NCBI RefSeq assembly: GCF_003151255.1
Contig: NZ_CP029481.1
Coordinates: forward strand, 2,728,001 to 2,792,000
Origin: Microvirga sp. 17 mud 1-3
GTDB lineage: Bacteria; Pseudomonadota; Alphaproteobacteria; Rhizobiales; Beijerinckiaceae
DNA length: 64,000 nt
Direction of reading: 5' to 3'
Part shown: in pieces, positions 23,912 to 28,436 of the stretch
Layout: each line of letters starts with the position of its first letter
How positions within the stretch are numbered: the first letter of the stretch is position 1
Notes under the pieces: model-generated
What the model was told of the DNA's origin: nothing
What the model saw: the letters and a program-made list of their open reading frames with translations, nothing else
The model's database searches: none
Translations under genes and position numbers: made by a program

Positions 23912-24751
23912 TCAAGCGTCCGGCGGCGGCACCTCCGGCCCGGCGGTCTCCATGCGCGCCTCCAGCCGCTCCAGGCGGCGGTAGCGCATGACGCTGACCG
24001 GGATCGACGCCAGGAACAGGAACGTGATCACCGTCAGCATCTCGAACGGGAAGCTGACCAGGAGCCCGAAGAGGGCCACCGATACCACGAAGATGGGCAG
24101 CACCCAGTGGCGCGGCACGTATTTGCCGATGGTCTTGCCCGAATAGACCGGGATGGTGGACACCATCAGGAACGCGAGACCCAGCAGATACACGAGAACG
24201 ATCGGCGCCACCGAGGCGTCGACGATGGGCACGCCGAGGAAGTGCAGGTAGATCGGCAGGAGCGACGTGATGGCGCCGGCCGGCGCCGGCATCCCGGTGA
24301 AGAAGTTCTTCTGCCATTCGGGCCGGTTGGGCGTGTCGAGCATCACGTTGAAGCGCGCGAGCCGCAGCACCATCGCGATGGCGAAGACCAGCACGGCGAT
24401 CCAGCCCACCGATTTCAGCTCATGCAGGACGAAGCTGTAGAGCACGAGCGCCGGCGTCACGCCGAAATTGACGAAATCGGCCAGGGAATCGAGTTCGGCG
24501 CCGAACCGGGACGTGCCTTTCAGCATCCGGGCCACCCGCCCGTCGATCCCGTCGAGCGCCGCCGCCACGATGATGGCGAAGACCGCCGGCTCCAGCCGCC
24601 CCTCATAGGCGAGGCGGATGGCCGTCAGCCCGAGGCAGAGTGCCACCAGGGTGATGATGTTGGGCACGATGACCCGGAACGGCACCGGCTTGAACAGCCG
24701 CTTGCGCGGCTCGTCCGGATCGGGCGCGAAGGGAGGAAAAAGATCGCTCAT
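23912..24751 (-). CDS. pssA: CDP-diacylglycerol-serine O-phosphatidyltransferase
   Basis: The 279-residue membrane protein carries the CDP-alcohol phosphatidyltransferase motif (D-G-x2-A-R-x8-G-x3-D-x3-D) in AALDGIDGRVARMLKGTS followed by GAELDSLADFVNFG, around residues 83-115, with several membrane helices after it. It makes phosphatidylserine, the precursor for phosphatidylethanolamine, in the inner membrane. Its usual partner psd lies on the same strand, but about 3 kb away across an inserted segment. Confidence 0.93.
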   Translation of the reverse strand: MSDLFPPFAPDPDEPRKRLFKPVPFRVIVPNIITLVALCLGLTAIRLAYEGRLEPAVFAIIVAAALDGIDGRVARMLKGTSRFGAELDSLADFVNFGVTPALVLYSFVLHELKSVGWIAVLVFAIAMVLRLARFNVMLDTPNRPEWQKNFFTGMPAPAGAITSLLPIYLHFLGVPIVDASVAPIVLVYLLGLAFLMVSTIPVYSGKTIGKYVPRHWVLPIFVVSVALFGLLVSFPFEMLTVITFLFLASIPVSVMRYRRLERLEARMETAGPEVPPPDA

Positions 24752-24836
24752 GCCAAGGTTTTAAGGTCACCCCCTCCGGCCCGCAAGGCCGGCTTTGGTT
24801 TTGCCCTCAACACTTCTGCGGGGAAAACCCCGCCCT

Positions 24837-24938
24837 AAAGCCTCGGGCGTGAAATCAAACTCACGTCCGAGGCTTTAAGCCTTTGTTTTTGAGCATCTTT
24901 TCACGCAAAACCGGTCCCCACTTTTGCGTCCGAGGCTC
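24837..24938. repeat. Tandem palindromic intergenic elements (family A, copy 2)
   Basis: At 24837-24876 AAAGCCTCGGGCGTGA pairs with TCACGTCCGAGGCTTT (one mismatch) around 8 bases. A second unit at 24891-24938 begins GAGCATC and contains CGCAAAACCGG and CCACTTTTGCG. Its core resembles the reverse complement of the first unit at 16972. The two copies differ in the outer arms but keep the architecture. It sits exactly where the inserted Hint segment begins, next to pssA. Confidence 0.8.
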
Positions 24939-26242
24939 TAGCCTCTCACAACCCTCAAAGCCGCAAGGCGGCGGCGCTCCCTACGGTTGAGGTTGGACGC
25001 GAAGGGGCAAGACACCGCAAAGGCCGGCTCGCCATTCACCGCCTGCGCCTCGCCCTCGTCGCGAAGCCCGGCGATCCAATCTGGCAAGTACGGCCTGTCA
25101 TCGAGCGATACCACCCAGTTCTCCTGAAACGGCGCATCCAGCGGCGTGCCGCCCGGCCAGGGTGTGGCGTTGTAGAATCGCCCATCGGCCCCTGTCAGCG
25201 TCCCGTCGGGCCTGATCGTGTAGTTCTGCTGCCGCAGCACCCGCGCCAAGCTCCAGCCTTCGCTTGAGCCGTCCGCTCGCCGCTCGGCGATGCAGACGAT
25301 TCCCGCTCTCACCACGGCCTTGTGCGGTCTGCCCGCCCGGTCGGCAAACAGCACCGTGACAGGCGCATCCTCCTCCGACCCGATCGCCGCTCCGGTACGC
25401 GCGCGCACTAGGACTGGCCCGCCCGTGCGCTCCTCCACAATCGCCCGGTCCCGGCGAAGAACGTCCGCAATCTTGAGCCATTCACCGTTGTCGGAGAGCA
25501 CCACATGGCCCGGCGTCATGCGCAGACCGCGCAGGTCGATGATCGACTTCGTGACATTCTGAAAGGTGCGCCTGACGCGAGCAGGCTTCCTGGCGCCAAG
25601 GCCATCATTGCCCTTGGGATCGAAGGCCATGACAAGATCGTCAGGGCGGACGTCCTGGATCGGCTTCTCCGACCCATCCGCCATCAGAACGGGTGTGTCG
25701 GCGAGGAAGCAATGAACCTCAAGGGACGAGCCCGGCTTATCCCAAGTCGCAGCGCGAATCTCCAGGAGTTTCTCCTTGCTCAGCAGGAGAACACTTTGTC
25801 CTGGAATTGGCTTGGTTATGGAAAGGGGTGGCTGAAGGCCCATGGCAACAGCCAAGGTCTCAATCACCGCATTGCTGTTGCTAATTCCGAGGGATGTTGA
25901 TGTAGAAAATAGCCCTATTACTGGATAACCAATTTCTAGAGCATTGATTTCCTTAGCCGCTAGAGTAGCTGCCGCCATCATTGCCTCGACCTCAGCTCGA
26001 GGTCCGCTGAAAAGCGTCTGCGACGGCATAGTCGGATCATAATTCGGACTCACGCCGGGAATAACAACTGCTTCTATCCTGTTAAGAGTAGAAAGGCCTA
26101 TTGCTCCTCGGACGCCATTAGGCGCTACTGCTAGACCTTCATAGCTTTGTACAATTGTCCCAGTCGAATCCCTTACGCTGATGACGCCATGGGAAGCGAT
26201 GCCGAGTTCTTTTGTAGAATACCCAATCGTCCAATCGCCCAC
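24938..26242 (-). CDS. Hint (intein/hedgehog-like) domain protein with an unclassified N-terminal domain
   Basis: The 434-residue protein has two parts. Residues 1-175 form a domain with SHGVISVRD (His18) and GISNSNAVIETL (about 119-130), reminiscent of papain/NlpC-like folds that carry an N-S-N signature; this is a weak resemblance. From Cys178, CFLADTPVLMADGSEKPIQD starts a Hint domain (block A), with MTPGHVVLSDNGEWL as the block B-like TxxH motif near 245. Hint domains self-cleave at their first Cys. There is no signal peptide. It starts 2 bp after the stop of a secreted cysteine-rich protein, so the two are translationally linked. Codon use in the N-terminal half is AT-richer. Confidence 0.75.
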   Translation of the reverse strand: MGDWTIGYSTKELGIASHGVISVRDSTGTIVQSYEGLAVAPNGVRGAIGLSTLNRIEAVVIPGVSPNYDPTMPSQTLFSGPRAEVEAMMAAATLAAKEINALEIGYPVIGLFSTSTSLGISNSNAVIETLAVAMGLQPPLSITKPIPGQSVLLLSKEKLLEIRAATWDKPGSSLEVHCFLADTPVLMADGSEKPIQDVRPDDLVMAFDPKGNDGLGARKPARVRRTFQNVTKSIIDLRGLRMTPGHVVLSDNGEWLKIADVLRRDRAIVEERTGGPVLVRARTGAAIGSEEDAPVTVLFADRAGRPHKAVVRAGIVCIAERRADGSSEGWSLARVLRQQNYTIRPDGTLTGADGRFYNATPWPGGTPLDAPFQENWVVSLDDRPYLPDWIAGLRDEGEAQAVNGEPAFAVSCPFASNLNRRERRRLAALRVVRG

Positions 26243-26244
26243 GA

Positions 26245-26682
26245 TTAGTACTTTCTATCTTTGTAATAAGGGTCAAATTCGTAACCAAATTTTATCTTTA
26301 TTTTCGGACAATTAGATCGGCCAAAATCAACCTTGACCTCCCATGATTGCCTAGCAATATTCGGGGTGAACTGGCCCATAAGATATTTAAATCTGCTGGT
26401 CTGACAAACCTTGTTGCGACACACAAACCCTGCTTCCAGCAACTCTTGAACATCGCGGCGTCCACAAAATTTCGAGAAATACGGCTTTAACTCTGAAATG
26501 ACGTACTCTTCTTCAGGAATTGACTGTCTTTTCAGGAGTAATCTATCGAATTCGCTATCAATAAAATTACTATGAATTTCATATACTTGGGCTAATGCCC
26601 TTGGCTCTACGAAGCAAACAAAAGTCTGCGTCGCCAGAACAGCGCAGGTCCATCGTCCTAGACCCGTTTTTGAAGACGACAT
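26245..26682 (-). CDS. Secreted four-cysteine protein, paralogue 2
   Basis: Taken from the ATG at 26682 (the frame also has an ATG at 26712), the product has 145 residues. It has a signal peptide ending ALAQ, then VYEIHSNFIDSEFDRLL, and conserved cysteines in KFCGRRD, GFVCRNKVCQTSRF and SNCPKIKIKF. It is clearly paralogous to the protein at 27202-27603, both in the signal peptide (GRWTCAVLATQTFVC) and in all four cysteines. It lies 2 bp upstream of the Hint gene. No family was recognised. A secreted partner, inhibitor or substrate of the Hint protein is an inference from position. Confidence 0.72.
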   Translation of the reverse strand: MSSSKTGLGRWTCAVLATQTFVCFVEPRALAQVYEIHSNFIDSEFDRLLLKRQSIPEEEYVISELKPYFSKFCGRRDVQELLEAGFVCRNKVCQTSRFKYLMGQFTPNIARQSWEVKVDFGRSNCPKIKIKFGYEFDPYYKDRKY

Positions 26683-27201
26683 GGCGCAAGCGAGCCTCAA
26701 GTGTGACCACAACCTAAATTTTCATAGGCTACTCAAAATACAACTATATATTTGGAGGGGGCCCTTGTATTCTACGACGAATTGTTTTCTAGGGTCCGCG
26801 GATACTATGAAATTAAATGATCGGTCACCTACTGGAAAACACCCTCCCCAAGCATTTGAGATAGAGTTATGGGAAAATGTGCCGGTTGCTGATAGTGTCT
26901 AGCTGCCAAATGCAACAGGATTCCATATGATATCGCGACCGGTCGGCGCTTTTTTCTCCCTACACTCTGCTCCCTGATTATATTTTTGCTTACGATTGCA
27001 CAAATCAATCCGACTACTGCTTCAGATAGCCCTTTTAGATTATAAACAATTATTGATATTGTAGAAGAATTTAATGTCTCTACTCTATTGTGAGAACAAT
27101 CGCGATCCATATAAATTATATTGCAATATATATCTGTTTCACTACTGGATAAATCTTATTCCAATAATTTTATCGACCGTCATATATATATATATCAATA
27201 A
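26683..27201. other. AT-rich gap between the paralogues, with duplicated upstream sequence
   Basis: Bases about 26683-26760 form the upstream region of paralogue 2 and resemble the upstream region of paralogue 1 (27604-27681), with the hexamer CAACCT at the same distance (27 bp) from each start codon. The rest is very AT-rich, includes a short TA run near 27183, and has one 93-codon minus-strand frame (26829-27110) that I do not consider supported. Confidence 0.55.
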
Positions 27202-27603
27202 TTAGTTGGACCAGAAATTCACACCGATCCTCGGGCATCCAGGTTTATTTACTCGGAAACTCCAACGTCTGACGTTTCTCTTGGAATCGAATATACTTCC
27301 GTAAACCCATGTTCGACTTGTCACACAGACCCGATTCTTACACTGAAAATTTGCAGCATAAAGTTCCGCAAATTCCTTCTTATTACAGAAATTTTCAAAA
27401 TATGACCTTGTGTATTCTATAGCGTATTTTTCGACCTCTATAAGACGAGCGTAACGGAGGATCCTATCGAAGGGGGTGTCGAGAGCATCGCTCTCAATTT
27501 CGTATACCTGCGCCAAGCTCCGTGATCCGGACAGGCAAACAAAAGCCTGCGCCATCAGAACAGCGCAGGCCCATCGCCCCATACTCGTTTTCAGTATCCT
27601 CAT
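27202..27603 (-). CDS. Secreted four-cysteine protein, paralogue 1
   Basis: The 133-residue protein has a signal peptide (MGRWACAVLMAQAFVCLSG...SLAQ) and then VYEIESDALDTPFDRIL, the same opening as paralogue 2. Its four mature cysteines (NFCNKKE, NFQCKNRVCVTSR, PGCPRIGVNF) align with those of paralogue 2, implying two conserved disulfides in the periplasm. The gene's own upstream region is duplicated too. It has no Hint gene directly downstream; a 490-bp gap follows. Function unknown. Confidence 0.7.
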   Translation of the reverse strand: MRILKTSMGRWACAVLMAQAFVCLSGSRSLAQVYEIESDALDTPFDRILRYARLIEVEKYAIEYTRSYFENFCNKKEFAELYAANFQCKNRVCVTSRTWVYGSIFDSKRNVRRWSFRVNKPGCPRIGVNFWSN

Positions 27604-27734
27604 GGTGCAGCCGAGTCCCCGCGCGACTGCAACCTAGACTTTCACGGTCTCCGGAGAACACAACTCTCTATTTGGGGAGGATACCTCTCGGCGTTCCTCC
27701 CCAGAGAGCACTGCTCCAGGTATGGGTGCCCGCC

Positions 27735-28436
27735 CTACCCCACCCGGTACTGCCGCGCAGGCTCGTTGACCGAGAGGTCCGCCAGCAGGGTTTCGCCCGC
27801 TACGGAGGTCTGGCCGAGGCCGACGAGGACCTGGGCGGTGAGTGGGACGTAGATGTCGAGGCGGGAGCCGAAGCGGATCAGGCCGAAGCGCTCCCCGGTG
27901 CTCAAGGAATCGCCCGCCTTGACGAAGGACACGATGCGCCGGGCCACGAGGCCGGCGATCTGCACCACGCCGATGCGGGTGCCGCCGGTCTCGATCACGA
28001 GGGCGTTGCGCTCATTGTCCTCGCTCGCCTTGTCGAGCTCCGCGTTAAGGAAGAGACCCGGCGTATAGAGGATCTGCAGGATGCGGCCCGTGACGGGGGA
28101 GCGGTTCACGTGGCAGTCGAACACGTTCATGAAGACCGAGATTCGGGTCATCGGCTCCTGGGGCAGATCGAGTTCCGCGGGCGGCACCGCCGTGGTGATG
28201 AGGCTCACGCGCCCGTCGGCGGGCGAGACCACGAGGCCTTCGCGGATCGGGGTCACGCGGGGCGGATCGCGGAAGAAGTAGCAGACCCAGACGGTCAGGA
28301 TCGTGCCGATCCAGCCGAGCGGCGACCACAGCATGGCCAGCAGGATGGTCGCGATCAGCGCGATCAGGATGAAGGGATACCCCTCCTTGTGGATCGGGAC
28401 GAAGATGCGGCGCATCGATTCCAGGATATCGGACAT
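27735..28436 (-). CDS. psd: Phosphatidylserine decarboxylase proenzyme
   Basis: The 233-residue protein has two N-terminal membrane segments (about 15-50), [12 protein letters not shown] near 70, [14 protein letters not shown] (active-site region) and the self-cleavage site in [11 protein letters not shown] near residue 190. There the GS bond is split to give the pyruvoyl alpha subunit. It makes phosphatidylethanolamine from phosphatidylserine. This is the short, alphaproteobacterial form. In related genomes pssA follows directly, but here about 3 kb intervenes. Confidence 0.94.

Follow-up and report, generated by a model that had tools for sequence, protein, structure and literature searches.

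Between the genes psd and pssA of Microvirga sp. 17 mud 1-3 lies an insert that encodes a 434-residue protein with a Hint domain and, upstream of it, two small secreted proteins, here called smA and smB. The insert is probably a toxin–immunity cassette that follows the logic of polymorphic toxins, with its layout reversed relative to the classical one. This reading draws on the architecture of the locus, the varied N-terminal partners of the Hint module, a step in base composition and patterns of co-occurrence and orthology, each described below. The DNA analysed, referred to as the window, is the 64,000-nucleotide stretch at positions 2,728,001-2,792,000 of NZ_CP029481.1, the single contig of the 4.40 Mb genome (G000; G, L and P numbers are our handles for genomes, loci and proteins).

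Architecture of the insert

Both flanking genes are on the minus strand, as are the three genes between them: psd at 27735-28436 (NCBIfam phosphatidylserine decarboxylase, 376.9 bits) and pssA at 23912-24751 (Pfam CDP-OH_P_transf, E 1.8e-23; TIGR00473, 106 bits, 1 bit below the NCBIfam cut-off of 107). They are 2,983 bp apart, in line with the roughly 3 kb noted in a first-pass annotation made from the sequence. The gene order on that strand is psd, smA (27202-27603, 133 aa), an AT-rich gap, smB (26245-26682, 145 aa), the Hint gene (24938-26242, GTG start) and pssA, with 2 bp between the end of smB and the GTG. The start of smB is an ATG; a TTG start at 26712 is likewise open.

On the Hint reading frame Pfam gave Hom_end_hint (E 1.5e-5), Vint (2.5e-4) and Hint (0.005), all from Cys178 and all below the cut-offs. 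A search of 5.8 billion proteins returned at least 49 homologues; among the matches listed, these agree from Cys178 onward and diverge before it, the Cys is found with F-[LVA]-x-x-T in 43 of the 43 that reach it (the other six start inside the Hint domain), and TPGH (T243-P-G-H246; 25505-25516) occurs in all 49. Both marks of the Hint superfamily, an N-terminal Cys nucleophile and TxxH, are present, which bears out the earlier placing of a Hint domain at Cys178. The N-terminal part of the module, residues 178-260 (25463-25711), is defined by Pfam, by conservation and by structures of inteins, BIL domains and Hedgehog proteins; in sequence and structure its first 50 residues resemble inteins, BIL domains and, weakly, Hedgehog (E about 1), and the intein and BIL structures match residues 175-232. 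The intein-type C-terminal His-Asn (HN) is missing from the alignment of short modules and is retained as VHN in four giant relatives (see below). Further on, the alignment and an AlphaFold2 (AF2) model define a conserved, beta-rich region at residues 265-395 (25058-25450), whose blocks mostly have a pLDDT of 77-95, and the protein ends in the tail N-L-NRRERRR-LAALRVVRG (24941-24994), of which NRxxR[RK] is found within the last 45 residues of 24 of the 49 homologues listed. Rhodobacter-like and Roseomonas-like short members (L069-L076, L097, L050-L052) often terminate in His (NTLH, ETIH, RMH) and not in LAALRVV. When 385 Alphaproteobacteria were sampled, 29 had some module match and nine had near-full-length short modules, as read from match lengths.

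It is clear that what precedes the module varies widely. Forty-nine N-terminal parts of at least 80 aa, taken from the homologues, from 15 further genes in the loci and from the window itself, fell into 31 clusters (blastp, E 1e-3), a set that includes near-duplicates (P0007 is L059, and P0002 lies within L056), one doubtful joining (P0012) and singletons that would probably merge, for example L070, L073 and L097 with their N-S-N motif; seven proteins were left unparsed, six starting inside the Hint domain and the seventh, P0017, being a lysozyme fusion. The N-terminus of P0017 is a phage lysozyme (E 5e-41), as is that of P0015 by its database record, and that of L072 is a Cell Wall Hydrolase (E 7e-8, above cut-off); P0007 matches Tlde1 (E 4e-6; 27.7 bits, under the cut-off of 30.1) and P0020 matches DUF6973 (E 0.015, under cut-off). 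HExxH zincin-like motifs were recognised by eye in P0004, P0005, P0010, P0023, P0024 and P0035, and for most N-terminal parts family matches were absent. One module on many toxin domains, the arrangement that characterises polymorphic toxins, is thus what was found, with the toxin nature indicated by homology in some of these domains only. PIN-like N-termini were suspected by eye in L050 and L076 and were not confirmed by Pfam.

In the window protein the N-terminal part, residues 1-177 (25712-26242; delimited by alignments, AF2 model and structure matches), was modelled with a pLDDT of 81 and a pTM of 0.83. The model resembles permuted NlpC/P60 folds, namely TseH, viral 2A and CLN5, and is in keeping with a predicted papain-like domain, a possibility raised in the first-pass annotation. 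Ser123, within Asn122-Ser123-Asn124, occupies the position where a Cys is expected in permuted NlpC/P60 proteins; His18 and Glu35 are kept in close homologues, and the third position is E, Q, K or H in distant ones. A sequence search of solved structures produced nothing meaningful for either the toxin-like domain or the small proteins, and no sequence link was found between this domain and P0034, by eye a Cys version of it. Standalone homologues of the N-terminal domain occur at L065 and L068.

Composition and domain exchange

The boundary at Cys178 is also a boundary in composition. GC content is 0.43 over 26243-27734, 0.51 over 25712-26242 and 0.66 over 24942-25711, with 0.63 for the window; the interval had been described as AT-rich, which is true of the small genes and of the Hint gene before Cys178 but not of its Hint half. 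GC at third codon positions (GC3) is 0.46 before Cys178 and 0.79 after it, and 0.93 and 0.92 in psd and pssA. All 17 short genes that were parsed show a rise in GC3 past the Hint Cys (mean +0.26, range +0.03 to +0.43; Wilcoxon 1.5e-5). Two genes missed by the parser, the window's own (+0.33) and L097 (+0.12), do so too, which brings this to 19/19, a count in which L053 and L054 are cut short and L057 and L097 start in broken frames. The step in the four giants is +0.01 to +0.12. As a control, 29 other window open reading frames (ORFs) of at least 250 aa, a mechanical list that may include antisense ORFs, were split at 41% of their length; the mean difference was +0.04 (sd 0.08, maximum +0.30), with none reaching +0.33. 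On a plain reading, toxin domains with a foreign composition are swapped in ahead of a Hint module that remains with its host. The composition of the Hint half is close to that of the host, so that recent exchange is suggested for the toxin domain and the small genes only.

The small secreted proteins

The first-pass annotation had noted a secreted four-cysteine protein 2 bp upstream of the Hint gene and a second copy further upstream; these are smB and smA, paralogues of 42% identity. Past the predicted signal peptides, which were judged by eye and which contain two further Cys in each protein, the cysteines are C73, C88, C93 and C123 in smA and C73, C88, C93 and C125 in smB, and all four are likewise present in the family members of G071 and G030. 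The family is narrowly distributed: with smA as query the 5.8 billion proteins yielded one relative, and in the genus it occurs in 4 of 48 genomes (twice in G000, and in G063, G071 and G030). The toxin-like domain occurs in three of the 48 (G000, G063, G071), and all three carry the small family (hypergeometric P 2.3e-4, these genomes being related) with a small gene just upstream of the domain. Furthermore, in G002 a Tlde1-like domain precedes this Hint module, the small family is lacking and the upstream neighbour is a membrane-type protein; the small family therefore tracks the toxin-like domain and not the Hint module.

Orthology adds to this picture. Mature smA is 78% identical to the sole small protein of G071, and mature smB only 35%. 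Among the toxin-like domains, those of G071 and M. lenta share 74% identity, and each is 55-59% identical to that of the window, which differs most at residues 1-85 (41-44% identity there, 66-70% after). Gene pairing and orthology, as seen in sequence comparison alone, fit an immunity gene matched to toxin type. The small secreted proteins, which had been proposed as partners or immunity factors, are best read as immunity proteins, and these patterns suggest that smB would be the cognate immunity protein of the present toxin-like domain and smA an orphan from an earlier toxin. Both genes are preceded by a leader of about 142 bp, made up of upstream region and signal-peptide codons, at 27535-27675 for smA and 26614-26755 for smB; the two copies are 72% identical. 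In G071 a related leader follows psd, ahead of a different secreted-type frame.

Two observations weigh against the orphan-immunity account. A toxin remnant was sought in 26700-27215, between smA and smB, and none was found; in the AT-rich interval between smA and the second leader (26756-27201) neither a gene nor a toxin remnant was identified. Further, in M. lenta the small gene has an in-frame stop and the adjoining toxin gene is open. More generally, where at least 300 bp of sequence upstream of a module gene is available, a same-strand ORF of at least 50 aa ends between -40 and +150 bp of that gene in 17 of 20 cases (L050, L051 and L053 have none), but this is weak evidence because operons are common. 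In G030 the small gene occurs without the toxin, and a neighbouring small gene is related to one upstream of the G000 giant (23% identity, E 3e-6); two secreted-type immunity-like genes thus lie abreast (L058 3176-4178) with no such toxin near, a possible orphan immunity array.

Site occupancy in the genus

The first-pass annotation had described psd and pssA as usually adjacent in Hyphomicrobiales. Within the genus they do normally lie close together: all 29 of the other loci compared (L006-L034), these being the relatives' loci kept for comparison, have a gap of 44-289 bp, and 17 of the 48 genomes of the genus fall outside the site count. The same three genes in most relatives would have spoken for an ordinary resident of the site. 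They are missing from all 29 of these loci, but a second species, G071, does have a cassette of this kind there; its psd and pssA are about 2.8 kb apart, and between them are a single gene of the small family, the toxin-like domain and a Hint gene interrupted by a change of frame. The cassette is accordingly supported as foreign to the psd-pssA junction of most relatives. The DNA that the window has in common with the empty sites of G001 (L006) and G030 (L007) reaches to 24792-24816 on the pssA side and about 27733 on the psd side. The suggestion of a mobile or recently acquired cassette stands as regards foreignness at most junctions and recent exchange of the toxin domain and small genes, but not as regards mobility, no mobility genes being seen at the cassette.

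A tree of psd plus pssA (31 sequences) groups G000, G071, G001 and G030 in a single clade with a support of 0.999; the site is filled in two of them and empty in the other two, and support within the clade is mixed (0.927, 0.091). A single insertion before the split of G000 and G071 could not be demonstrated from this tree; the alternatives are one insertion followed by losses, or two insertions. Between G000 and G071 identity is 96% for psd, 98% for pssA, about 86% for the Hint part and 55% for the toxin-like domain.

Between the Hint gene and pssA lies an inverted repeat (24824-24889; arms of 29 nt, 79%) of terminator-like or repetitive extragenic palindrome (REP)-like form. Directly past the Hint gene, at 24906-24926, is a perfect palindromic element, CAAAAGTGGGGACCGGTTTTG, present as a single copy in the window; elements of this type are a common repeat in this bacterial order. 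A tRNA-Ala of 99 nt called by ARAGORN at 24722-24820, over the pssA start and near the insertion limit, was rejected as spurious, as it was without Rfam support. No RNA element in 24700-27800 matched Rfam at gathering score, and PADLOC matched none of the three cassette proteins as anti-phage defence.

Giant relatives and export

In G005, G012 and G001 an N-terminal domain and a Hint domain are followed by 22-26 RTX stretches in proteins of 1,845-2,101 aa (L060-L062). The window genome itself has a giant-type locus, at G000:C1:2904253, in two frames; the region (G000:C1:2902247-2909292; L063 7247-14292) adjoins an M10 RTX protease of serralysin-like type and a further RTX protein. Between the G005 giant (L060) and the short P0004 the zincin-like N-termini share 51% identity, and the N-terminus of the G000 giant resembles that of the short P0020 (37%). 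M. lenta (L056) retains a remnant of a zincin-like domain, adjoined by a gene 35% identical to one upstream of the G005 giant. These shared N-terminal domains indicate that short and giant carriers draw on the same toxin pool. As a side observation, the M. lenta cassette beside this zincin-like fragment and immunity-like gene (L056 7656-8959) appears as a replacement trace, at the site where G002 has its Tlde1-like cassette.

How the window protein might be exported was approached through marker genes. VipB, for type VI secretion (T6SS), was found in two of 48 genus genomes, neither a Hint carrier, and is absent from G000 and from the seven genus Hint carriers; it is present in 1 of 12 module carriers. 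VirB4, for type IV secretion (T4SS), was found in 13 of 48, including the giant carriers G001 and G012, and is absent from the short-cassette carriers G000, G063, G002 and G071. As far as VipB and VirB4 tell, both systems are excluded for G000. PrtD-type transporters of type I secretion are present in all 48. The window protein gave no match to the RTX repeat family PF00353, and no secretion signature of polymorphic toxins was matched by Pfam on it.

Discussion

We infer toxicity, cleavage, immunity and export from the patterns above, and the cassette might work as follows. Residues 1-177 would be an exchangeable toxin, perhaps acting on envelope lipids or peptidoglycan; an N-to-S acyl shift at Cys178 could break the chain and free the toxin domain, and export of smB to the periplasm would keep the producer safe. 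In the history that this implies, the site would first have been occupied by an older pair, smA and a toxin of the G071 type; smB and the toxin-like half seen now may then have entered as a new pair upstream of the resident Hint module, with smA kept as orphan immunity after the replacement. The repeated leader could have provided a second arm for the exchange. More broadly, and tentatively, the insert may represent uncatalogued inverted polymorphic toxins of the Alphaproteobacteria, in which the toxin is N-terminal, a Hint-tail module of about 260 residues exports it and cuts or transfers it in Hedgehog fashion, and pairs are exchanged between the leader and the resident Hint.

Alternatively, the short toxin-Hint genes could be silent, unexported donors whose toxins recombine into the giant toxin-Hint-RTX weapons of type I secretion. 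The giants with their RTX stretches, the N-terminal domains common to both forms, the giant-type locus in G000 itself and the ubiquity of PrtD-type transporters would all suit such a role; however, the short module is conserved over its full length, with a region and tail that are missing from the giants' Hint, its GC3 is near that of the host, unlike a passive store, and near-full-length modules recur across the class sample, so that we consider this explanation unlikely. It is also conceivable that the Hint protein is a self-maturing enzyme, secreted or intracellular, and that the small proteins are its inhibitors or chaperones, with no role in conflict. Papain-like proteases are often paired with inhibitors and standalone homologues of the N-terminal domain exist, but the N-terminal diversity and the lysozyme, Tlde1-like and cell-wall hydrolase cases are better suited to toxins, and this account seems to us quite improbable. 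Least credible of all, and hardly to be expected, is a relic of a homing intein or endonuclease element: although Hom_end_hint is the best Pfam match and some relatives are named Hint domain-containing homing endonuclease in databases, the protein is without the C-terminal HN needed for splicing, an endonuclease match or a host extein, and the N-terminal parts vary freely.

If the toxin–immunity reading is correct, a C-terminal toxin is not obligatory in polymorphic toxins, and release by a Hint domain can extend to a toxin at the N-terminus. The conserved tail would then point to an export or delivery route in G000 other than T6SS or T4SS, the family would offer new envelope toxins, along with immunity proteins, from bacteria that live in soil or with plants, and finding the parts of a bacterial weapon in Hedgehog-like order would bear on the origin of that layout. 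No description of an inverted toxin-Hint layout was found in the open-access papers searched, nor were Microvirga and Hint domain found there together, nor N-terminal toxin domain, HINT and polymorphic toxin together; this is weak evidence of novelty.

Relationship to known systems

Of the RTX type I proteins of the genus (L060, L061, L062, L063), the window protein shares the toxin-like N-terminus followed by Hint, and most of them have a secreted-type small gene upstream; it differs in lacking RTX repeats, and the giants' Hint keeps the C-terminal VHN. With TseH and Tox-Act1, in the parts of PMC12994826 drawn on here, the toxin-like domain has in common the predicted fold, an early His, the position of the nucleophile at the start of a later helix and a context of conflict, whereas Ser123 stands for Cys, T6SS is absent and sequence similarity to solved structures is lacking. 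The Hedgehog-type proteins likewise have an N-terminal effector and then a C-terminal Hint domain with a Cys at its start and TxxH; here, however, signs of sterol transfer are absent, the N-terminal domain is variable and the resemblance of the Hint domain is weak.

The closest comparison is with the polymorphic toxins themselves, which, in the portions of Zhang et al. (2012; PMC3482391) used for this comparison, have the toxin at the C-terminus with HINT just before it, and in which HINT is tied to T2SS, T5SS, T7SS (types II, V and VII secretion) and TcdB/TcaC and never to T6SS or PVC. A conserved trafficking and processing part with exchangeable toxins, an autoprocessing Hint domain and adjacent as well as orphan immunity genes are features described there that the cassette would share; it differs in that the toxin-like domain is N-terminal (residues 1-177) with Hint after it (from 178), and no signature of the T2SS, T5SS, T7SS or TcdB type was seen in the window protein. 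Because these features fit, and yet the defining C-terminal position of the toxin is not found, the cassette is probably best regarded as an inverted variant of the polymorphic toxin.

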